Shown: piece by piece, positions 7,190 to 43,665 of the stretch
How positions within the stretch are numbered: the first letter of the stretch is position 1
Layout: every line of letters begins with the position of its first letter
NCBI RefSeq assembly: GCF_029094525.1
Contig: NZ_CP119107.1
Location: forward strand, 434,001 to 498,000
DNA: 64,000 bases
Direction: 5' to 3'
Source of the DNA: Pullulanibacillus sp. KACC 23026
GTDB lineage: Bacteria > Bacillota > Bacilli > Bacillales > Sporolactobacillaceae
The notes under the pieces: model-generated
Told to the model about the DNA's origin: nothing
Seen by the model: the letters and a program-made list of their open reading frames with translations, nothing else
The model's database searches: none
Position numbers and translations under genes: made by a program

Positions 7190-8226
7190 AGGCCCGGCCC
7201 CACCATTAAGTAGGCGGGCCTAATCCAAGAAGGTTGAGGAAAAATCTGAGAAGGTTAGTCAAAAATCCTAAAAGGTTAGTCAAAAATCCAAGAAGGTCGG
7301 CTCAAAATCCGAGAAGGTCCAGCCCCGCCCATAAGTAGGTGGACGTGATCCTAGAAGGTAGAAGAAAAATCTGAGAAGGTTACTCAAAAATCCAAGAAGG
7401 TCCTGCAAAAATCCGAGTAGGTTGGCGCAAAATCCGAGAAGATCCAGCGCCGCCCATAAGCAGGCTGGACCCATCCAAGAAAGTTGAGGAAAAATCTGAG
7501 AAGGTTCCTCAAAAATCCTAAAAGGTTTGTCAAAAATCCAAGAAGGTCGGCGCAAAATCCGAGAAGGTCCAGCGCCGCCCATAAGCAGGCGGTCCCCATC
7601 CAAGAAGGTTGAGGAAAAATCTGAGAAGGTTACTCAAAAATCCTAAAAGGTTAGTCAAAAATCCAAGAAGGTCGGCGCAAAATCCGAGAAGGTCCAGCCC
7701 CGCCCATAGGCAGGCGGGCCTCATCCAAGAAGGCTGAGGAAAAATCTGAGAAGGTTAGTCAAAAATCCTAAAAGGTCCTGCAAAAATCCAAGAAGGTCGG
7801 CGCAAAATCCGAGAAGGTCCAGCCCCGCCCATAGGCAGGCGGGCCCCATCCAAGAAGGTTGAGGAAAAATCTGAGAAGGTTCCTCAAAAATCCTAAAAGG
7901 TTAGTCAAAAATCCAAGAAGTTCGGCGCAAAATCCGAGAAGGTCCGGCCCCGCCCATAAGCAGGCGGGGCACATCCAAGAAGGTTGAGGAAAAATCTGAG
8001 AAGGTTCCTCAAAAATCCTAAAAGGTTTGTCAAAAATCCAAGAAGGTCGGCGCAAAATCCGAGAAGGTCCGGCCCCGCCCATAGGCAGGCGGGCCTCATC
8101 CAAGAAGGTTGAGGAAAAATCTGAGAAGGTTCCTCAAAAATCCTAAAAGGTTAATCAAAAATCCAAGAAGGTCCAGCAAAAATCCAAGAAGGTCCAGCGC
8201 CGCCCGCCCACAAGACAAGCACCCCA
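7190..8226 (+). repeat. Repeat array 1: nested 21-bp / 125-bp tandem array
   Basis: About eight super-units of 125 bp. Each holds four 21-bp units of the type AAATCCGAGAAGGTNNNNCAA and one 41-bp unit with a GC-rich linker (CCGCCCATAAGCAGGCGG), which can form a hairpin. The linker word CGCCCATAAGCAGG recurs at 7451 and 7576, exactly 125 bases apart. The AGAAGGT core reads on the plus strand. The array fills the space between the two glycosyltransferase/SH3-like modules and begins directly beyond the terminator of the 8289-8591 gene. The long frames inside it (LLGFLTNLLGF-type translations) shift phase with each super-unit and have no ribosome-binding sites. Confidence 0.95.
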
Positions 8227-13133: not shown

Positions 13134-14915
13134 GCCGGCGCAAAATCCGAGAAGGTCCAGCGCCGCCCTTAAGTAGGTGGACGTGATCCGAGAAGGTAGA
13201 AGAAAAATCCGAGAAGGTTACTCAAAAGTCATAGAAGGCTAGCCAAAAATCCGAGAAGGTCGGCGCAAAATCCGAGAAAGTCCAGCGCCGCCCCCAAGCA
13301 AGCGTGCGTGATCCTAGAAGGTAGAAGGAAAATCTGAGAAGGTTACTCAAAAATCATAGAAGGTCGGCGCAAAATCCGAGAAGGTCCAGCGCCGCCCCCA
13401 AGCAAGCGTGCGTGATCCTAGAAGGTAGAAGGAAAATCTGAGAAGGTTACTCAAAAATCCTAGAAGGTCCAGCAAAAATCCTAGAAGGTCGGCGCAAAAT
13501 CCAAGAAAGTCCAGCGCCGCCCTTAAGTAGGTGGACGTGATCCGAGAAGGTAGAAGGAAAATCTGAGAAGGTTACTCAAAAATCCAAGAAGGTCCACCAA
13601 AAATCATAGAAGATCGGCGCAAAATCGAAGAAGTTCCAGCGCCGCCCCCAAACAAGCGTGTCCAATCCTAGAAGGTAGAAGAAAAATCCGAGAAGGTTAC
13701 TCAAAAATCTAAGAAGGTCCACCAAAAATCATAGAAGGTCGGCGCAAAATCCGAGAAGGTCCGGCTCCGCCCCCAAACAAGCGTGTCCAATCCTAGAAGG
13801 TAGAAGAAAAATCCGAGAAGGTTACTCAAAAATCTAAGAAGGTCCACCAAAAATCCTAGAAGGTCGGCGCAAAATCCGAGAAGGTCCGGCGCCGCCCCCA
13901 AGCAAGTGTGCCCAATCCGAGAAGGTAGAAGAAAAATCTGAGAAGGTTACTCAAAAATCCGAGAAGGTCCAGCAAAAATCCAAGAAGGTCGGCGCAAAAT
14001 CCGAGAAGTTCCAGCGCCGCCCCCAAGCAAGCGTGCCCAATCCGAGAAGGTAGAAGAAAAATCTGAGAAGGTTACTCAAAAATCCGAGAAGGTCCAGCAA
14101 AAATCCAAGAAGGTCGGCGCAAAATCCAAGAAAGTCCAGCGCCGCCCCCAAACAAGCGTGCGTGATCCTAGAAGGTAGAAGAAAAATCCGAGAAGGTTAC
14201 TCAAAAATCTAAGAAGGTCCACCAAAAATCCAAGAAGGTCGGCGCAAAATCCAAGAAGGTCCATCGCCGCCCCCAAGCAAGCGTGCGTGATCCGAGAAGG
14301 TAGAAGAAAAATCCGAGAAGGTTACTCAAAAATCTAAGAAGGTCCACCAAAAATCCTAGAAGGTCAGCGCAAAATCCGAGAAGTTCCAGCGCCGCCCCCA
14401 AGCAAGCGTGCCCAATCCGAGAAGGTAGAAGAAAAATCTGAGAAGGTTACTCAAAAATCCGAGAAGGTCCAGCAAAAATCCAAGAAGGTCGGCGCAAAAT
14501 CCGAGAAGTTCCATCGCCGCCCCCAAGCAAGCGTGCCCAATCCGAGAAGGTAGAAGAAAAATCTGAGAAGGTTACTCAAAAATCCGAGAAGGTCCAGCAA
14601 AAATCCAAGAAGGTCGGCGCAAAATCCAAGAAAGTCCAGCGCCGCACCCAAACAAGCGTGCCCAATCCTAGAAGGTAGAAGAAAAATCTGAGAAGGTTAC
14701 TCAAAAATCATAGAAGGTCCAGCAAAAATCCAAGAAGGTCGGCGCAAAATCCAAGAAAGTCCAGCGCCGCCCCCAAGCAAGTGTGCCCAATCCGAGAAGG
14801 TAGAAGAAAAATCCGAGAAGGTTACTCAAGAATCTAAGAAGGTCCACCAAAAATCCTAGAAGGTCAGCGCAAAATCCGAGAAGGTCCAGCGCCGCCCCCA
14901 AGCAAGTGTGCCCAA
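13134..14915 (+). repeat. Repeat array 2: nested 21-bp / 125-bp tandem array
   Basis: About fourteen super-units of 125 bp made of the same 21-bp units as array 1 (core AATCCGAGAAGGT). The array-specific 41-bp linker reads GCGCCGCCCCCAAGCAAGCG. Reading frames start at 13951, 14076, 14201 and 14451, i.e. at steps of 125 or 250 bases. The block at about 13926-14150 recurs 500 bases downstream (four super-units) with near identity. The core reads on the plus strand. The array begins about 220 bases upstream of the amino-acid binding-protein gene and ends only about 12 bases past the proA stop codon. Confidence 0.95.
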
Positions 14916-14916
14916 T

Positions 14917-14957
14917 CGGGAATGCATCAATTTCTAACTTGCCCATTCCCGTTAATC
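14917..14957 (-). terminator. Hairpin overlapping the proA stop codon
   Basis: CGGGAATG and CATTCCCG flank a 19-base loop that contains the proA stop codon. There is no T-run because array 2 begins immediately after it. It may be a weak terminator or an mRNA 3'-end stabiliser, and array 2 may have replaced the original tail. Confidence 0.4.
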
Positions 14958-16227: not shown

Positions 16228-16326
16228 TAGTGTAAGTGGAACGAGAGAACCGTCCCCGCGTTTCCCCGCGTTTCAAGTGGAACGAGAGAACCGTCCCCGC
16301 ATTTCCCCGCGTTTCACAGCGTTTCA
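16228..16326. repeat. Two tandem GAGAACCGTCCCC elements between proB and proA
   Basis: Two near-identical copies of GGAACGAGAGAACCGTCCCCGC, each followed by CCCCGCGTTTC, lie in the gap between proB and proA. Related elements occur at 33484, 57778, 57841 and 60076. Insertion here lengthens the intercistronic gap of an operon that is usually tight. Confidence 0.85.
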
Positions 16327-23311: not shown

Positions 23312-23880
23312 CGGCGCTAACCTGCTGGGGGGCAGAGTAGCTTTTTGTATAAATTGGATGACCTTTTCGGAAAGGGTGCCAATCTGCCAGGGGGGGCAGT
23401 GGACCTTCTTGGATAAATAGTCGACCTTTTCGGATTTTTAGCGGACCTTCTCAGATTTTTCACCAACCTTCTCGGATAATTGGCGGACCTTCTCAGATTT
23501 TTCGCCAACCTTCTCGGATAATTGGCGGACCTTCTTGGAAAGGGTGCTAATCAGCCGGGGTTCCAGTGGACCTTCTCGGATAAATAGTCGACCTTTTCGG
23601 ATTTTTTGAGGACCTTCTCGGATTTTTCGCCAACCTTCTCGGATAATTGGCGGACCTTCTTGGAAAGGGTGCCAATCTGTCAGGGGGGGCAGTGGACCTT
23701 CTTGGATAAATAGTCGACCTTTTCGGATTTTTAGCGGACCTTCTCGGATTTTTCACCAACCTTCTCGGATAATTGGCGGACCTTCTTGGAAAGGGTGCCA
23801 ATTTGCCGGGGTTCCAGTGGACCTTACCGGATAAAAGGCCAACCTTCTCGGATAGGTGTTAATTTGCCGGGGGGAGTGCC
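23312..23880 (-). repeat. Repeat array 3: 21-bp / 125-bp array in reverse orientation
   Basis: About four super-units. The core reads ACCTTCTCGGATTTTT on the plus strand, so the AGAAGGT strand is the minus strand, opposite to the other four arrays. The linker carries CTTGGAAAGGGTGC and a GGGG-rich tract. The word CCTTCTTGGAAAGG starts at 23530, 23655 and 23781, giving spacings of 125 and 126. The first unit near 23312-23400 is degenerate. It lies between the alpha-glucosidase and the small zinc-ribbon gene, inside the maltodextrin region. Confidence 0.92.
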
Positions 23881-25809: not shown

Positions 25810-25856
25810 GGGTTCCCAAAAAATCTAGCTTCTGCTCGTTAGCCAGACTTCTCCAA

Positions 25857-25932
25857 TAGTGATCTCGCGTAATGGGTAAGGCGACGTCATCAAATAGTGA
25901 TTCTCTCGTAAAGGGCAGGGCGACCTCATTCA
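25857..25932. repeat. Imperfect direct repeat ahead of malE
   Basis: Two adjacent copies of about 37-39 bases share TAGTGAT, CTCGCGTAA/CTCTCGTAA, GGGTAAGG/GGGCAGGG, and CGACGTCATCA/CGACCTCATTC. They are not part of the 21-bp arrays. A GTCTGTCCCC half-element follows at about 25953. Function unknown. Confidence 0.6.
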
Positions 25933-26019
25933 GAGATGATTCCTTCTGTTGAGGTCTGTCCCCTTTCTAGTAAAAAATCCTTATATATCAAGGGTTTCAA
26001 AGATTTTATAAAAAAGTTA

Positions 26020-34621: not shown

Positions 34622-35143
34622 ATGGAAAAAAAGTATGCAAGAGAGTCACGTGTTGTTAAAACGAGCCGTGTATTTCCGACTCATACCAATAATCATGACA
34701 CCCTTTTTGGCGGATTGTTAATGAGTTACATTGATGATATCGCTTCTATATCAGCAGCGCGACACTCAAGGAGAGAATGCGTTACCGCTTCAACCGATTC
34801 AGTTGACTTCCTTCGTCCCATTACACCGGATGACTCAGTGTGTCTCGAATCAGTTGTCTCATGGACCGGCCATACCTCTATGGAAGTATTTGTTAAAATT
34901 GTTGCTGAAAACCTGCGAACCGGCGAACGGCGAATTGCAGCAACCTCCTTTATCACCTTCGTGGCCTTGGATGACAACAAAAAACCAGTTGCAGTTCCAC
35001 AAGTCATACCGGAAACCGAAGAGGAAAAGAAACTCTTCGCCACAGCAGAACGCCGAGCTGAAGCCAGACGAGCCCACCGCGAAGTCAGCCGAGAACTCGC
35101 CTCCACTCTCACAGTCGAACGATCATGGGAAAAATATAAATAA
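34622..35143 (+). CDS. Acyl-CoA thioesterase (YkhA-like, hotdog fold)
   Basis: A 173-residue cytoplasmic hotdog-fold thioesterase that hydrolyses acyl-CoA. The conserved words are SRVFPTHTNNHDTLFGGLLMSYIDDIASISA (with catalytic Asn/Asp), CVTASTDSVDFLRPI and SWTGHTSMEVFV. The C-terminal tail (EEKKLFATAERRAEARRAHRE) is charged and helical, as in the YkhA group. AAAGGGG precedes the ATG. A perfect terminator follows at 35151. Chain-length preference is not deducible. Confidence 0.92.
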   Translation: MEKKYARESRVVKTSRVFPTHTNNHDTLFGGLLMSYIDDIASISAARHSRRECVTASTDSVDFLRPITPDDSVCLESVVSWTGHTSMEVFVKIVAENLRTGERRIAATSFITFVALDDNKKPVAVPQVIPETEEEKKLFATAERRAEARRAHREVSRELASTLTVERSWEKYK

Positions 35144-35150
35144 CAATTAC

Positions 35151-35178
35151 AAAAGTGCCGCCCGCGGGCGGCACTTTT
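35151..35178 (+). terminator. Terminator of the thioesterase gene
   Basis: AAAAGTGCCGCCCG and CGGGCGGCACTTTT form a perfect 14-bp inverted repeat, eight bases after the stop codon. Symmetry allows use from both directions. Confidence 0.9.
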
Positions 35179-35269
35179 ATCATAAAGAAGAGATCGCACG
35201 CAAAGAAAGTGTCGCGCAGCCTCAAGCAAGAAGATGTTTGGGAAATCCCGAAAAAATAGGGCGCTAGTC

Positions 35270-38200
35270 AAAAGCACGAGGGTCCAATCCGAGAAGGTCC
35301 AGCGCCGGCCCCGGTTAAGAGGGTCCAATCCGAGAAGGTCAGCACAAAATCCGAGAAGGTCGGTGCTGGCCCCAGCCAAGAGGGTCTAATCTGAGAAGGT
35401 CAGCAAAAAATCCTAGAAGGTCGGCGCAAAATCCTAGAAGGTTGCCCAAAAATCATAGAAGGTCTGTCAAAAATCCGAGAAGGTCCAGCGCCGGCCCCAG
35501 CCAAGAGTGCCCAATCTGAGAAGTTCAACCAAAAATCCAAGAAGGTCGGCACAAAATCCTAGAAGGTTGCCCAAAAATCATAGAAGCTCTGTCAAAAATC
35601 CGAGAAGGTCCAGCGCCGGCCCTGGTCAAGAGTGTCCAATCCCAGAAGGTCAACAAAAAATCCCAGAAGGTCCAGCGCGCCCCCCGGTTAGAGGGGCCAA
35701 TCCGAGAAGGTCAGCAAAAAATCCTAGAAGGTCCAGCGCCGGCCCTGGTTAAGAGGGTCCAATCTGAGAAGGTCAGCCAAAAATCATAGAAGGTCGGCGG
35801 AAAATCCTAGAAGGTTGCCCAAAAATCATAGAAGCTCTGTCAAAAATCCGAGAAGGTCCAGTGCCGGCGCCGGTTAAGAGGGTCCAATCTGAGAAGGTCA
35901 ACCAAAAATCCGAGAAGGTCGGTGCAACATCCGAGAAAGTTGCCCAAAAATCATAGAAACTCTGTCAAAAATCCAAGAAGGTCCAGAGCCGGCCCGGGTT
36001 AAGAGTGTCCAATCCTAGAAGGTCAGCAAAAAATCCTAGAAGGTCGGTGCAACATCCGAGAAGATTGCCCAAAAAACATAGAAGCTCTGTCAAAAATCCG
36101 AGAAGGTCCAGAGCCGGCGCCGGTTAAGAGGGTCCAATCTGAGAAGGTCAACCAAAAATCCGAGAAGGTCGGTGCAACATCTGAGAAAGTTGCCCAAAAA
36201 TCATAGAAACTCTGTCAAAAATCCGAGAAGGTCCAGTGCCGGCGCCGGTTAAGAGGGTCCAATCTGAGAAGGTCGGTGCAACATCTGAGAAAGTTGCCCA
36301 AAAATCATAGAAGCTTCGTCAAAAATCCTAGAAGGTCCAGCGCCGGCCCGGTTAAGAGGGTCCAATTTGAGAAGGTCAGCAAAAAATCCGAGAAGGTTGC
36401 CCAGAAATCCGAGAAGCTCTCTCAAAAATCCCAGAAGGTCCAGAGCCGGCCCCGGTTAAGAGGGTCCAATCTGAGAAGGTCAACCGAAAATCCAAGAAGG
36501 TCGGTGCAAAATCCGAGAAAGTTGCCCAAAAACCATAGAAGCTCTGTCAAAAATCCCAGAAGGTCCAGAGCCGGCGCCGGTTAAGAGTGTCCAATCTGAG
36601 AAGGTCGGTGCAAAATCCCAGAAGGTCGGCGCAAAATCATAGAAGGTTGCCCAAAAATCATAGAAGGTCTGTCAAAAATCCGAGAAGGTCTAGGGCCGGC
36701 CCCGGTTAAGAGTGTCCAATCTGAGAAGGTCGGTGCAAAGTCCCAGAAGGTCGGTGCAACATCCGAGAAGGTTGCCCAAAAATCATAGAAGCTCTGTCAA
36801 AAATCCAAGAAGGTTCAGCGCCGGCCCGGGTTAAGAGTGTCCAATCCTAGAAGGTCAGCAAAAAATCCCAGAAGGTCGGCGCAAAATCCTAGAAGGTTGC
36901 CAAAAAATCCTAGAAGCTCTGTCAAAAGTCCCAGAAGGCCCAGTGCCGGCCCCGGTTAAGAGTGTCCAATCTGAGAAGGTCGGTGCAAAATCCGAGAAGG
37001 TTGCCAAAAAATCATAGAAGCTCTGTCAAAAATCCAAGAAGGTCTAGGGCCGGCGCCGGTAAGAGGGTCCAATCTGAGAAGGTCAGCCAAAAATCATAGA
37101 AGGTCGGCGCAAAATCATAGAAGGTTGCCAAAAAATCATAGAAGCTCTGTCAAAAATCCGAGAAGGCCCAGTGCCGGCGCCGGTTAAGAGGGTCCAATCT
37201 GAGAAGGTCAACCAAAAATCCGAGAAGGTCGGTGCAAAATCCGAGAAAGTTGCCCAAAAATCCTAGAAGATCTGTCAAAAATCCAAGAAGGTCCAGAGCC
37301 GGCCCGGGTTAAGAGTGTCCAATCCTAGAAGGTCAGCAAAAAATCCAAGAAGGTCGGCGCAAAATCCTAGAAGGTTGCCAAAAAATCATAGAAGCTCTGT
37401 CAAAAATCCTAGAAGGTCCAGAGCCGGCGCCGGTTAAGAGGGTCCAATCTGAGAAGGTCGGTGCAAAGTCCCAGAAGGTCGGTGCAAAGTCCCAGAAGGT
37501 CGGCGCAAAATCCTAGAAGGTTGCCCAAAAACCATAGAAGCTCTGTCAAAAATCCCAGAAGGTCCAGCGCCGGCCCGGGTTAAGAGTGTCCAATCCTAGA
37601 AGGTCAGCAAAAAATCCAAGAAGGTCGGTGCAACATCTGAGAAAGTTGCCCAAAAATCATAGAAGCTCTGTCAAAAGTCCCAGAAGGTCCAGCGCCGGCG
37701 CCGGTTAAGAGTGTCCAATTTGAGAAGGTCAGCAAAAAATCCAAGAAGGTCGGCGGAAAATCCGAGAAAGTTGCCAAAAAATCATAGAAGCTCTGTCAAA
37801 AATCCGAGAAGGTTCAGCGCCGGCGCCGGTTAAGAGTGTCCAATCTGAGAAGGTCAGCCAAAAATCCGAGAAGGTCGGTGCAAAATCCGAGAAAGTTGCC
37901 CAAAAATCATAGAAGCTCTGTCAAAAATCCAAGAAGGTCCAGCGCCGGCGCCGGTTAAGAGTGTCCAATCTGAGAAGGTCAACCGAAAATCCAAGAAGGT
38001 CGGTGCAAAATCCGAGAAAGTTGCCCAAAAACCATAGAAGCTCTGTCAAAAATCCCAGAAGGTCTAGGGCCGGCGCCGGTAAGAGGGTCCAATCTGAGAA
38101 GGTCAGCCAAAAATCCCAGAAGGTCGGCGCAAAATCATAGAAGGTTGCCAAAAAATCATAGAAGCTCTGTCAAAAATCCGAGAAGGCCCAGTGCCGGCGC

Positions 38201-38860
38201 CGGTTAAGAGGGTCCAATCTGAGAAGGTCAACCAAAAATCCGAGAAGGTCGGTGCAAAATCCGAGAAAGTTGCCCAAAAATCCTAGAAGATCTGTCAAAA
38301 ATCCAAGAAGGTCCAGAGCCGGCCCGGGTTAAGAGTGTCCAATCCTAGAAGGTCAGCAAAAAATCCAAGAAGGTCGGCGCAAAATCCTAGAAGGTTGCCA
38401 AAAAATCATAGAAGCTCTGTCAAAAATCCTAGAAGGTCCAGAGCCGGCGCCGGTTAAGAGGGTCCAATCTGAGAAGGTCGGTGCAAAGTCCCAGAAGGTC
38501 GGTGCAAAGTCCCAGAAGGTCGGCGCAAAATCCGAGAAAGTTGCCCAAAAACCATAGAAGCTCTGTCAAAAATCCTAGAAGGTCCAGAGCCGGCCCGGGT
38601 TAAGAGTGTCCAATCCTAGAAGTTCAGCAAAAAATCCGAGAAGGTCGGCGCAAAATCATAGAAGGTTGCCAAAAAATCCTAGAAGCTCTGTCAAAAATCC
38701 AAGAAGGTCCAGAGCCGGCCCCGGATAAGAGTGTCCAATCCCAGAAGGTCAGCCAAAAATCATAGAATGTCGGCGGAAAATCATAGAAGGTTGCCCAAAA
38801 ATCCTAGAAGCTCTGTCAAGAATCCCCAGAAGGTCCAGCGCGACCTCAGACAAGAGGTTC
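35270..38860 (+). repeat. Repeat array 4: largest nested 21-bp / 125-bp array
   Basis: About 3.6 kb, or roughly 28-29 super-units of 125 bp. Units are AAAATCCGAGAAGGT variants: CATAGAAGCTCTGTC, CGAGAAAGTTGCCC, CTAGAAGGTCGGCGC and so on. The linker is GCCGGCGCCGGTTAAGAG or GCCGGCCCCGGTTAAGAG. The linker start recurs at 36113 and 36238, exactly 125 apart. A block at about 37110-37511 is identical to 38130-38531, showing a recent 1020-base-spaced duplication. The core reads on the plus strand, sense with the upstream thioesterase gene and the downstream NERD gene. No protein frame stays open through super-units with a real start. Confidence 0.96.
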
Positions 38861-38987
38861 AAAATTGTCTGGAAAGTCTATTGTATAGATAAAAAATCAC
38901 AAAATGACTGTATTTTATCAAAATAAGAGAAGGGAAATTAGAATTTAAAGAGAATATAAGAAATAAGAAAATTTATGGAGGGGATTT

Positions 38988-40001
38988 ATGGTAACTATAG
39001 TGAAGCCTCGAGATTACCCCATTGATCTAAGACAATTAGAGGCAATAAGACGAAATTATCGATTTAATGATGCGAAGAGTTTAGAAATCGAGTCGGAAAT
39101 TATTAACAGAGAAATGGGATTTCGCGGAGAAAGGCAACTTGATTATTATCTGAGCATGATTACGGATGAGCCAATCTATGTTTTGCATAATTTAAGGCTC
39201 TGTGGGCAAAACATGTATTTTGAAATTGACACAATTTTGCTTTCTCCATTTTTTTGTCTATTAATTGATGTGAAAAATTATAAGGGACATCTATATTTTG
39301 ACCAGTTATTAAAACAATGTATTAGAACCTACAAGGAAAATAAGGAAGGTATACAAGACCCTATTAGTCAATCTGAAATGCATCTTTATTGCATGCAAGA
39401 TTTTTGGAAAAACAATAACTTACCGGTCACCACTTTTCTACCTCTTGTAGTCATTGCATTTGCCACCACATCGGTATCCACGAACCAAGGCCTCGAAAAA
39501 AATCTTCACCAAATGGTTATTCATTCACACCACTTAATTAAACGACTTCAAACTGTCTATAAGTCTCATCCCAAAAAAATCTTTACAAAAAATCAACTTC
39601 AAACTATTTCCAAATTTCTGCTTTCAAAACATGTACCTAAATGTCCAAGCGCAATGAAAAAACTGAGTCTGCAACCTACTGACTTTCATCAAGGTGTTCA
39701 ATGTCCAAGTTGTAAATTGTTTTCGATGATTTGGAAGGTTGCTAAATGGTATTGCCCCTCCTGTGGTGCTATATCAAAAAATGCCCACTACCAGGCCCTC
39801 TCTGATTATTTCCTCCTTCACAATCCAAGTATTACTTCTGCACAATTTCAAAAAATGATGGATCTCCCCACCATGGACGTCTCGCGTCGGCTCCTTCAAA
39901 ATGTTCAAGGTCTGCAAAAGATAGGGAATACCTATAACACCACATATGCACCCAAAACTCTTGACTGGTTAAGTACAGATGATGTACAAAACTCGCACTG
40001 A
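38988..40001 (+). CDS. NERD-domain protein with zinc ribbon
   Basis: A 337-residue protein. The N-terminal NERD (nuclease-related) domain shows GFRGERQLDYYL, then FEIDTILLSPFFCLLIDVKNYKGHLYF; Glu, Asp and the DVK lysine are in the order of a restriction-endonuclease-like active site. A zinc ribbon follows with CPSC and CPSCG (roughly residues 242-262), and a helical tail of about 60 residues. GGAGGGG precedes the ATG. The gene is visibly richer in A+T than its surroundings and stands alone between arrays 4 and 5, which suggests transfer into an array. Nuclease activity, target and link to the repeats are not shown. NERD proteins have been associated with DNA processing and mobile or defence contexts. 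Confidence 0.85.
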   Translation: MVTIVKPRDYPIDLRQLEAIRRNYRFNDAKSLEIESEIINREMGFRGERQLDYYLSMITDEPIYVLHNLRLCGQNMYFEIDTILLSPFFCLLIDVKNYKGHLYFDQLLKQCIRTYKENKEGIQDPISQSEMHLYCMQDFWKNNNLPVTTFLPLVVIAFATTSVSTNQGLEKNLHQMVIHSHHLIKRLQTVYKSHPKKIFTKNQLQTISKFLLSKHVPKCPSAMKKLSLQPTDFHQGVQCPSCKLFSMIWKVAKWYCPSCGAISKNAHYQALSDYFLLHNPSITSAQFQKMMDLPTMDVSRRLLQNVQGLQKIGNTYNTTYAPKTLDWLSTDDVQNSH

Positions 40002-40010
40002 ATCACCCCA

Positions 40011-41565
40011 AAAATCCCAGAAGGTCCAGCGTCAGCCCTGGTCAAGAGTGTCCAATCTGAGAAGGTCAACAAAAAATCCTAGAAGGTCGGCGCAAAATCC
40101 GAGAAAGTTGCCCAAAAATCCTAGAAGCTTCGTCAAAAATCCGAGAAGGTCCAGGGCCGCCCCTGGTTAAGAGTGTCCAATCTGAGAAGGTCAGCCAAAA
40201 TCCTAGAAGGTTGCCCAAAAATCCTAGAAGCTTCGCCAAAAATCCGAGAAGGTCCAATGCCAGCCCCGGTTAAGAGTGTCCAACCTGAGAAGGTCAGCGC
40301 ACCATCCGAGAAGGTCCAGCGCCGGCCCCAACCAAGAGGGTCTAATCTGAGAAGGTCAGCAAAAAATCCGAGAAGGTCGGCGCAAAATCCGAGAAGGTTG
40401 CCAAAAAATCCTAGAAGGTCTGTCAAAAATCCGAGAAGGTCTAGGGCCGGCCCCGGTTAAGAGTGTCCAATCTGAGAAGGTCAACCAAAAATTCTAGAAG
40501 GTCGGTGCAAAATCCGAGAAAGTTGCCCAAAAATCCTAGAAGATCTGTCAAAAGTCCCAGAAGGTCCAGCGCTGGCCCCAGCCAAGAGGGTCCAATCTGA
40601 GAAGGTCAACCAAAAATCCGAGAAGGTCGGCGGAAAATCATAGAAGGTTGCCAAAAAATCATAGAAGCTCTATCAAAAATCCAAGAAGGTCCAGAGCCCC
40701 CCCGGTTAAGAGTGCCCAATCTGAGAAGGTCAGCAAAAAATCCGAGAAGGTCGGCGCGCCATCCCAGAAAGTTGCCCAAAAATCCTAGAAGCTTCGTCAA
40801 AAATCCAAGAAGGTCCAGCGCACCCCCTGGTTAAGAGTGTCCAACCTGAGAAGGTCAGCAAAAAATCCGAGAAGGTCGGCGCAATATCCGAGAAAGTTGC
40901 CCAAAAATCCTAGAAGCTCTGTCAAAAGTCCCAGAAGGTCCAGCGCCGGCCCCGGTTAAGAGTGTCCAATCTGAGAAGGTTAGCACTAAATCCCAGAAGG
41001 TTGGCGCGCCATCCCAGAAGGTTGTCAAAAATCCCAGAAGGTCCAGTGCCGCCCCTGGTTAAGAGTGTCCAATCCCAGAAGGTCAGCAAAAAATCCGAGA
41101 AGGTCGGCGCACCATCCCAGAAAGTTGCCAAAAAATCATAGAAGCTTCGTCAAAAATCCCAGAAGGTCCAGCGCCCCCCCCCGGTTAAGAGTGCCCAATC
41201 TGAGAAGGTCAGCACAAAATCCGAGAAGGTCGGCGCACCATCCCAGAAAGTTGCCCAAAAATCCTAGAAGCTTCGTCAAAAATCCCAGAAGGTCCAGCGC
41301 ACCCCCCGGTTAAGAGTGTCCAATCCCAGAAGGTCAGCCAAAAATCCCAGAAGGTCGGCGCAAAATTCAAGAAGGTTGCCAAAAAATCATAGAAGCACTG
41401 TCAAAAGTCCCAGAAGGTCCAGCGCCGGCCCCAGCCAAGAGGACCAAATCCAAGAAGGTCGGTGCAAAATCCCAGAAGGTTGCCCAAAAATCCGAGAAGC
41501 TTCGTCAAAAATCCAAGAAGGTCCAGCGCCGGCCCCAGCCAAGAGGGCCCAAGCCAAGAATCCCC
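40011..41565 (+). repeat. Repeat array 5: nested array after the NERD gene
   Basis: About 1.55 kb, or twelve super-units. The 21-bp units and linkers (GCCGGCCCCGGTTAAGAG, GCCAGCCCCGGTTAAGAG, CACCCCCCGGTTAAGAG) match array 4 type rather than arrays 1-3. It resumes only ten bases after the NERD stop codon, beginning with an AAAAATCCCAGAAGGTCCAGCG unit, the same unit type with which array 4 ends. Its right end decays into AAGCCAAGAATCCCCTCC. Same orientation as array 4. Confidence 0.95.
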
Positions 41566-41788
41566 TCCAAAAACCCCACAAAATTCCACCACCTCCAAGG
41601 CAAGGTGACTCCATCTTATCCCAAACTTCTCCAAAATGGCTTGACTCCATTGGCGTTCCGTTTTATCATTAGTTTTGTAAGTAGGCAAGTGTGAATTTAC
41701 TGTCCGCTTGCGAGACAATTGGCAGCCGGTTAATGATGGTATCAGAAGGTTGCTTAATAATTTGAGGGCAATGCTTTGTCTAAGAAGA
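41566..41788. other. Gap between array 5 and the neopullulanase leader
   Basis: No gene with support is seen. Open frames in this stretch continue from array 5 and carry no ribosome-binding site. It may hold the rightward promoter used by the terminator-bearing leader downstream. Confidence 0.4.
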
Positions 41789-41840
41789 CAACAACCCCGG
41801 AACTGTGCAAGTCGTTCCTTGGGTTGTTTTTTGTTTTTTT
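41789..41840 (+). terminator. Orphan intrinsic terminator in the neopullulanase leader
   Basis: CAACCCCGGAAC and GTTCCTTGGGTTG form an imperfect stem around TGTGCAAGTC, followed by TTTTTTGTTTTTTT. There is no gene upstream for about 1.8 kb on this strand, so it may be a leader attenuator for the neopullulanase gene (start 41917) or a relic of a lost gene. Confidence 0.7.
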
Positions 41841-41859
41841 AAGAATGAATTCAACCTAG

Positions 41860-43665
<1,806 letters not shown>

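Follow-up and report, generated by a model that had tools for sequence, protein, structure and literature searches.

NERD-domain genes of Bacillus-like bacteria usually adjoin tandem repeat arrays of their own and may form a two-part chromosomal system with them

We examined a gene that lies between two long tandem repeat arrays in Pullulanibacillus sp. KACC 23026 (Table 1). (The window is the whole stretch of DNA that we analyzed, 64,000 nucleotides.) A preliminary description, made from the sequence alone, had singled out positions 38861-40010, which comprise this gene and its 5' leader. It claimed that an A+T-rich gene with a NERD domain and a zinc ribbon is the only gene between arrays 4 and 5, that both arrays are of one unit type, and that array 5 restarts ten bases after the gene's stop codon. 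The first three claims held. No other gene lies between the arrays; the GC content of 39001-40000 is 0.367, as compared to 0.455-0.513 in the 1-kb blocks that hold arrays; and arrays 4 and 5 have an identical type of 21-bp unit and of 125-bp superunit. The last claim was nearly right: array 4 ends at about 38838, and the first unit of array 5 lies 13 bases past the stop codon.

The 21-bp unit consists of a ATCCGAGAAGGTC-type half and a variable half. In arrays 4 and 5, there are mostly five units spaced 21 bp apart and then a step of 41 bp, which together make up the 125-bp superunit. (In the scanned stretch, 35001-42000, 28 of the 47 runs of units have exactly five units 21 bp apart. The other 19 runs include at least four spurious matches within the NERD gene or its leader.) The gene is located between modules, not within one: on its 5' side, array 4 stops after a complete five-unit module, and on its 3' side, array 5 opens with a single unit of the fifth-position type, followed by full modules. 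A two-unit pattern has 155 matches in the window's genome, while the reversed pattern has none, so a chance origin is excluded. We also considered whether the arrays might be coding sequence, and rejected this because the length of the superunit, 125 bp, cannot be divided by three and no open reading frame of 150 amino acids or more lies inside the arrays. No Rfam family matched the window. Outside of the arrays, the window also has two small duplications, one of 41 bp (16234-16316; 97% alike) and one of about 39 bp (25855-25942).

The same unit occurs elsewhere on this 4.8-Mb chromosome. We examined 15 arrays of it, and only two of them flank the NERD gene. The remaining 13 or more are solo arrays, without an adjoining NERD gene. 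(This is a lower bound, as the second pattern was stricter.) The preliminary description had suggested looking for the same repeats beside NERD genes in other genomes. Taken literally, this check failed: the window's unit pattern was found in just 1 of 58 genomes, its own, and in none of the 57 relatives. Nor did the unit pattern match any stretch in a collection of named genomes, from which the window's genome and its very near relatives may have been omitted.

Table 1. Positions of the NERD gene, its protein regions, and the 21-bp arrays within the window
Feature	Position	Strand	Remarks
Solo array of the window's 21-bp unit	7207..8205	+	no adjoining NERD gene
Solo array of the window's 21-bp unit	13136..14917	+	no adjoining NERD gene
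Solo array of the window's 21-bp unit, opposite strand	23360..23853	-	no adjoining NERD gene
Terminator-like hairpin	35151..35178	+	about 110 bp 5' of array 4; sequence and hairpin scan
Array 4	35287..38838	+	125-bp modules, each with five 21-bp units; 5' of the NERD gene
NERD / zinc-ribbon / winged-helix gene	38988..40001	+	337 aa, ATG start; proposed trans-acting protein
NERD domain, residues 44-156, PD-(D/E)XK-like fold	39117..39455	+	Pfam match, alignment, predicted model
Zinc-ribbon cysteines C239, C242, C256, C259	39702..39764	+	invariant in the sets of 28 and 77 proteins
C-terminal winged-helix region, about residues 265-325	39780..39962	+	predicted model; alignment to ArsR/MarR-type repressors, Z about 7-8 (middling)
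Array 5	40014..41560	+	21-bp unit and 125-bp module as in array 4, 3' of the NERD gene

The protein belongs to the NERD family, as its match to Pfam's NERD model (PF08378; E = 1e-16, 61.9 bits) exceeds the gathering score of 22.1 bits. A four-cysteine motif that resembles a zinc ribbon follows the NERD domain. (Pfam's zinc-ribbon models match below threshold.) From knowledge of the fold, we take E48, D81, and D94-x-K96 to be the likely active site; catalysis is inferred. E48, D81, K96, and the four cysteines are invariant across 28 aligned proteins that were gathered without using peptide patterns. At position 94, at least 90% of these 28 proteins have glutamate; the window's protein has aspartate. 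The likely nuclease residues are also invariant in 77 proteins, with the caveat that this set was chosen by peptide patterns that include some of those residues. (Another protein alignment, A3, contains 44 of the 80 named homologues described below and the window's protein. Four loci with stop codons, L068, L091, L101, and L118, were excluded from the protein comparisons.)

The predicted structure of the protein is confident (mean pLDDT of 92.9). In structural alignments, the N-terminal half resembles the PD-(D/E)XK proteins Cdn1/Can2, VC1899, and McrC (Z = 7.1-8.1), and the C-terminal part resembles winged-helix repressors of the ArsR/MarR type; these scores are middling. Foldseek with the same model gave no match below E = 0.001 (the best was 0.0034), and a sequence search of solved structures found no relevant match. 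Given the PD-(D/E)XK-like N-terminal half, the winged-helix C-terminal part, and the conserved residues, a DNA-binding nuclease is the natural reading of this protein. This is an inference from the sequence and the predicted model, for binding as well as for cutting.

Do other genes of this family adjoin repeats? We found matches to the protein in 47 of the 57 relatives, often several per genome. In a first set of 29 homologous loci, all from other genomes and part of a longer list of matches, a tandem repeat of the 20/21-bp type adjoins the gene in 25 cases and is lacking in four. The units differ between the loci. In a second set, the 80 best homologues from 372 relatives in one named collection, with up to 10 kb of flanking sequence per side, TRF identified a 20/21-type repeat no more than 1 kb away from the gene in 61 loci and not in the other 19. 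The preliminary description had proposed, as a conjecture, that the NERD gene and the repeats are linked, and had stated that homologues without arrays, together with arrays never linked to NERD, would refute this. We found the opposite in both sets: most of the homologues, in other genera, have arrays of their own, and the link is strongly supported.

In the named loci, the repeat is more often on the 5' side of the gene: it falls within the first 250 bp on the 5' side in 44 of 80 loci and on the 3' side in 19 of 80. The 5' arrays typically lie about 80-190 bp before the start codon. By a more sensitive periodicity score, 75 of the 80 loci exceed the 95% level of the null on at least one side, and 43 exceed the 99% level. 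By chance, over two sides, we would expect about 8 and 1-2 loci, respectively. (Five loci fail even the 95% test.) The null was built from 2,414 windows that start 1.5-9 kb away. As most of these windows are coding, we added a control of intergenic gaps (at least 150 bp long, with control gaps over 1.5 kb from the gene). Arrays are present in 29 of 52 gaps 5' of the gene and in 17 of 34 gaps 3' of it, as compared to 21 of 357 other gaps.

Averaged over the 77 loci with enough flanking sequence, the autocorrelation on the 5' side peaks at lags of 20, 21, 40-42, and 60-63, with weaker peaks on the 3' side at 21 and 42; windows 3 kb away show only the 3-base periodicity of coding sequence. In the same loci, the two flanks of a gene share at least three 10-mers in direct orientation in 21 of 77 cases, in inverted orientation in 1 of 77, and in 1 of 73 control pairs. 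(At L061, each flank has an element of about 140 bp; the two elements are alike and share a leader.) Repeats of the 20/21 type also occur farther out, in 16 of 72 loci for the bin 6-10 kb on the 5' side, as dispersal would give.

Not every homologue has an array. Across 299 genomes from the phylum, six had matches at E = 1e-25 or better. Ten loci from this wider search include five with a 20/21-type array and one with a 52-type array; neither type was found at L243 (a strong homologue), at the most distant homologues, L247 and L248, or at L255. Of 11 NERD matches in the genomes G058 and G059, seven have a 20/21-type repeat according to TRF; of the remaining four, two are broken copies and one lies where a contig ends. 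The window's genome has a fourth NERD gene (L194, G000:C1:2902049-2902387), which has the highest NERD score in that genome (118.8 bits), and we found no tandem array in the surrounding 11 kb. It may be that plain NERD proteins such as this one are outside the system.

We also noticed several features of individual neighborhoods. L078 (Salirhabdus sp.) has many separate 21-bp arrays over 20 kb, but none that TRF could identify less than 1 kb from the NERD gene. L116, L118, and L121 are homologous to each other on both flanks, and L079 and L093 share DNA with them to the left of the NERD gene. In L116, L118, and L121, the NERD gene and its arrays are enclosed by apparent enolase and secG genes, judging from the sequence of L116.

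A second subfamily of NERD genes has arrays with a longer period. Besides those mentioned above, the window's genome has two genes of this build, one encoding 301 amino acids at 3394642 and one encoding about 310-318 amino acids near 1247892, both with 52-bp arrays 3' of the gene. A search with the 301-amino-acid protein found matches in 29 of 81 genomes of the order. We analyzed 30 of the 58 listed matches, including the query's own locus, and found arrays of the 51-53-bp type (period of 50-54 bp) at 28 of them, or 27 of 29 without the query's locus. Of these 28 arrays, 25 start within about 135 bp of the gene's 3' end, and three are on the 5' side only. At the two loci where TRF found no array, one gene is at a contig end. 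Conversely, none of the 80 subfamily-1 loci have a 50-54-bp array within 1 kb of the gene, and only two such arrays are present elsewhere in their 1.59 Mb. The period of the array thus follows the subfamily of the protein.

Other long-period arrays have no partner that we could identify. In the window's genome, L181:2169-3087 (G000:C1 at about 1243168-1244086) is a tandem array with a period of 82/163 bp; its core, GCGTAACGAG, is unlike the NERD-linked families, and no partner gene was identified. L037:10595-11031 and L041:14772-14880 are arrays with periods of 102 and 51 bp that have CCCACCATTTT-like stretches in common, and could be another 52-bp-type family for which no NERD gene is known.

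Another potential explanation for the repeats is that they are transcribed, and that the array RNA is processed by the protein or serves as a guide. In support of this, units have the same orientation on both flanks where they are shared, and two-unit stretches of two 52-bp arrays fold better as RNA than shuffled sequences do (z = -4.9 and -2.4). However, for three modules of the 21-bp type, folding does not exceed that of shuffled sequences (z = 0.1 to 0.9), and there was no Rfam family in the window. Also, terminator-like hairpins point at 17 of 27 arrays, where transcription should be low. (The corresponding figure is 55 of 140 control gaps, p = 0.02, which is a weak result with an imperfect control.) We take a preference of arrays for sites behind terminators as no more than a lead. 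We consider a role for array RNA to be unlikely. The presence of RNA folding in the two 52-bp arrays and not in the three 21-bp-type modules suggests that the two subfamilies may work differently.

The unit varies from gene to gene, and close orthologues have it in common. We compared units and proteins for 58 loci that have an intact protein and a 19-22-bp TRF unit (60 loci had such a unit). Below 50% protein identity, unit similarity is about 5.0-5.9; at 50-60%, 60-70%, and above 70% identity, it rises to 7.0, 9.7, and 13.6. The control with reverse-complemented units remains at 5.7-6.1 in those upper three bands. Over all pairs, the correlation is small (Spearman 0.065, which was reached by 26 of 500 permutations). 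Correlations of the unit with the NERD, middle, and C-terminal parts of the protein taken separately are all below 0.08, so no region was informative. The signal is thus confined to close relatives, above about 50% identity, and among them the unit and the protein are co-inherited. Within one genome, G017, we examined seven paralogues out of eight matches; six of the seven have an array, and their units differ, yet those of L187 and L193 look alike. What is conserved across genomes is the pairing of gene and array, not the sequence of the repeat.

Dispersal of a gene's own unit is not limited to the window's genome. One NERD gene of Peribacillus acanthi (G053) has an array that is also present at many other sites: we found 17 clusters of three or more units in 13 regions, including two lone clusters of exactly five evenly spaced units. 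(The 13 regions were chosen because they matched the gene's array.) In the window's genome, a 52-bp array is repeated at 20 additional sites, of which one is weak, and was not found in the two other genomes tested. In G004, the tested array has 66 matches at 40 places, including the gene's own; of three other genomes, two had no match and the third had a single match of 71% identity. Dispersal is weak in G017, where the one array tested has just three weak extra places.

These results bear on another explanation, that NERD genes and tandem repeats merely gather in permissive intergenic spots. Both do occur in gaps between genes, and other tandem repeats are also plentiful in the window's genome. 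But hitch-hiking does not predict that the period is specific to the subfamily, that close orthologues have a common unit, or that arrays of the same unit are found at distant sites. We consider it very unlikely.

Can a solo array have its NERD gene elsewhere in the genome? In G053 and its sister species G058, a NERD gene with arrays lies between a response-regulator gene (Pfam Response_reg and GerE; probably degU) and degV (Pfam DegV). At this site, G059 has only an array, with another unit (of the GGGTTGAATTAT type), and no NERD gene. We therefore predicted that G059 has a NERD gene with that unit elsewhere. We found it on contig C63, with 16.5 copies of CGGGTTGAATTATTTAGAGAA directly 5' of the gene. 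Similarly, on visual inspection, the units of other NERD genes in G053 and G058 have opposite-strand matches among further solo arrays of those genomes.

The arrays also change quickly. At orthologous sites in the two sister species, there are eight modules in G053 versus one in G058, or several modules in G053 and none that are recognizable in G058. Thus, both copy number and presence vary. At L239 (G058:C32:502357-502770), G058 has a NERD remnant beside one retained array, and G053 has arrays only. Most of the nuclease part of this copy is deleted and the zinc-ribbon and winged-helix part is kept; it might be a repressor-like derivative or a decaying gene. For the origin of the arrays around the window's gene, the preliminary description had offered either insertion of the gene into an array or growth of the array on both sides. 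Growth in place fits better because sister species have one or eight modules and because the gene sits between modules.

There are some caveats. For some tandem arrays in the window's genome, we identified no NERD partner. We found no precise insertion edges or target duplications, either in Peribacillus or in 13 pairs of named loci. The one clear absence of an array in G058 (the L160 site) is possibly a decayed array, and the difference between L121 and L116/L118 has no clean edges. Also, these comparisons rest on one genome per species, without population data.

The preliminary description had also raised the possibility of a defense system, and we found nothing that supports defense specifically. 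In such a scenario, the arrays would keep the nuclease harmless, as a DNA sponge or a mark of self, and the nuclease would attack invading DNA or kill cells that lose the arrays. Consistent with this, NERD domains are found in defense proteins and the nuclease residues are kept. There are also matches to the NCBIfam model for MADS6 (E down to 2e-7; 29.8 bits versus a cut-off of 460) and a weak match to PglW (E = 0.0085, the best from PADLOC). But the MADS6 matches are far below the cut-off, no curated NCBIfam cut-off was reached, and no PADLOC model matched convincingly. Also, a search of 50,697 phage records with the window's protein found no match, and a search of plasmids with one homologue found only five partial matches. 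Finally, the copy at L239 has lost most of the nuclease part while an array was retained. We regard defense or addiction as unlikely. The third suggestion of the preliminary description, repeat processing, is (together with dispersal) the branch with the best support, with cutting inferred.

The main rival, which remains possible, is that the repeats are operators. In this scenario, the protein binds them to regulate its own gene, the solo arrays are regulatory or organize the chromosome, and the nuclease fold is a relic or is rarely used. Three observations favor this idea: the position of subfamily-1 arrays, more often 5' than 3'; the alignment of the C-terminal part to ArsR/MarR-type repressors; and the two-turn spacing of the units, which would suit cooperative binding. 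On the other hand, subfamily-2 arrays are almost always 3' of the gene (25 of 28), the likely nuclease residues do not vary (neither among the 28 proteins nor among the pattern-picked 77), and arrays can be several kilobases long. Furthermore, the solo arrays vary between sister species in presence, copy number, and sequence, unlike a conserved regulon. These points do not exclude operators.

Instead of operators, we lean towards a nuclease with a cognate satellite: the NERD gene and the repeats of the window would be one copy of a two-part chromosomal system. We hold this view, mechanism included, with only modest confidence. The protein would be a sequence-specific DNA-binding nuclease, with a NERD domain of the PD-(D/E)XK type, a zinc ribbon, and a winged helix. 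It would recognize the 20-21-bp units; with these spaced by two helical turns, several protomers could line up along the same face of the DNA. The basic site would be a cluster of about five units (a pentad). Each protein, or each group of close orthologues, would have a private unit. The protein would act in trans, both on its own flanking arrays and on the cognate solo arrays that are scattered between genes. The protein would nick or cut at the arrays, and recombinational repair would then duplicate modules side by side and also place copies at new positions between genes. As a result, families of arrays would expand, spread, and be quickly replaced. Such a mechanism would account for the cluster size, the two-turn spacing, the private units, the solo arrays with partners in trans, the tandem growth, and the rapid replacement. 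Binding, nuclease activity, copying, and spread caused by the nuclease are all inferred: we have not observed binding, cutting, or movement.

A bolder reading, which we lean slightly against, is that the repeats are a class of satellite DNA in bacteria for which a dedicated nuclease is both maker and spreader. Bacillales would have hundreds of such NERD-winged-helix proteins, each group of them directed to a repeat of its own, and cutting and repair would amplify pentads and disperse them over the chromosome. It would be an independent invention of the way of life of RAYTs and REPINs (see below) and a natural collection of paired DNA-binding specificities.

In the open-licence literature that we searched, we found nothing that links NERD to repeats, so within that limit a NERD gene with its cognate array looks like an undescribed two-part system in Bacillus-like bacteria. 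An earlier description elsewhere is not excluded. If our explanation is correct, then many of the long intergenic tandem repeats in these genomes gain an identifiable maker, and genes that are annotated merely as "NERD domain protein" gain a substrate, as each names its own DNA site. Given many natural pairs of protein and unit, it would be possible to decipher the code by which the winged-helix and zinc-ribbon part recognizes DNA.

How does this compare to known systems? As in CRISPR, tandem repeats adjoin a nuclease-like gene. But arrays 4 and 5 lack unique spacers of constant length; their units are degenerate and lie back to back, and the NERD gene between them (the only gene that we searched for Cas) has no Cas match above cut-off. 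By these features, they do not qualify as CRISPR-Cas. Plasmid iterons are direct repeats spaced about two helical turns apart, with a handful per cluster, beside the gene for the protein that binds them. In contrast, the NERD arrays are found at scattered places on the chromosome, and the fold of their protein is nuclease-like instead of Rep-like. A homing endonuclease gene interrupts its own recognition site, and empty sites are cut. In the window, the NERD gene is placed between two modules. Sister species have array sites that contain the NERD gene as well as array sites that lack it, and any cutting is inferred here. As members of the NERD family, these proteins score well above the curated cut-off for the domain; what sets this subset apart is the additional zinc ribbon and winged helix, as well as the link to arrays.

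A further likeness is to RAYTs, whose genes are flanked by their own repeats. These DNA-cutting transposases presumably act on REPINs in the manner that we propose above for the NERD proteins, with protein and repeats that are unrelated to ours. The enzyme and the repeats coevolve, the presence of the gene predicts the abundance of the repeats, and cognate repeats are dispersed in intergenic DNA (PMC2817692, PMC3116915). Similarly, the NERD gene encodes a putative trans-acting enzyme (DNA cutting is inferred) and has its own repeat on its flanks; further copies of that repeat are scattered through the genome, if weakly in G017; and protein and repeat appear to coevolve, here only above about 50% protein identity. 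However, RAYTs are transposases related to IS200/IS605, and their repeats are two palindromic REPs in inverted orientation. Neither holds here: in five NERD proteins scanned with Pfam, we found the NERD domain and no transposase catalytic domain (Y1, HUH), and the NERD loci have direct tandem arrays of units of about 21 bp or 52 bp, with inverted sharing as the rare exception. The type of enzyme and the orientation of the flanking repeats rule out that these loci are RAYT-REPIN systems. If our explanation is correct, they are a second and unrelated type of partnership between an enzyme and a repeat, beside RAYTs and REPINs.
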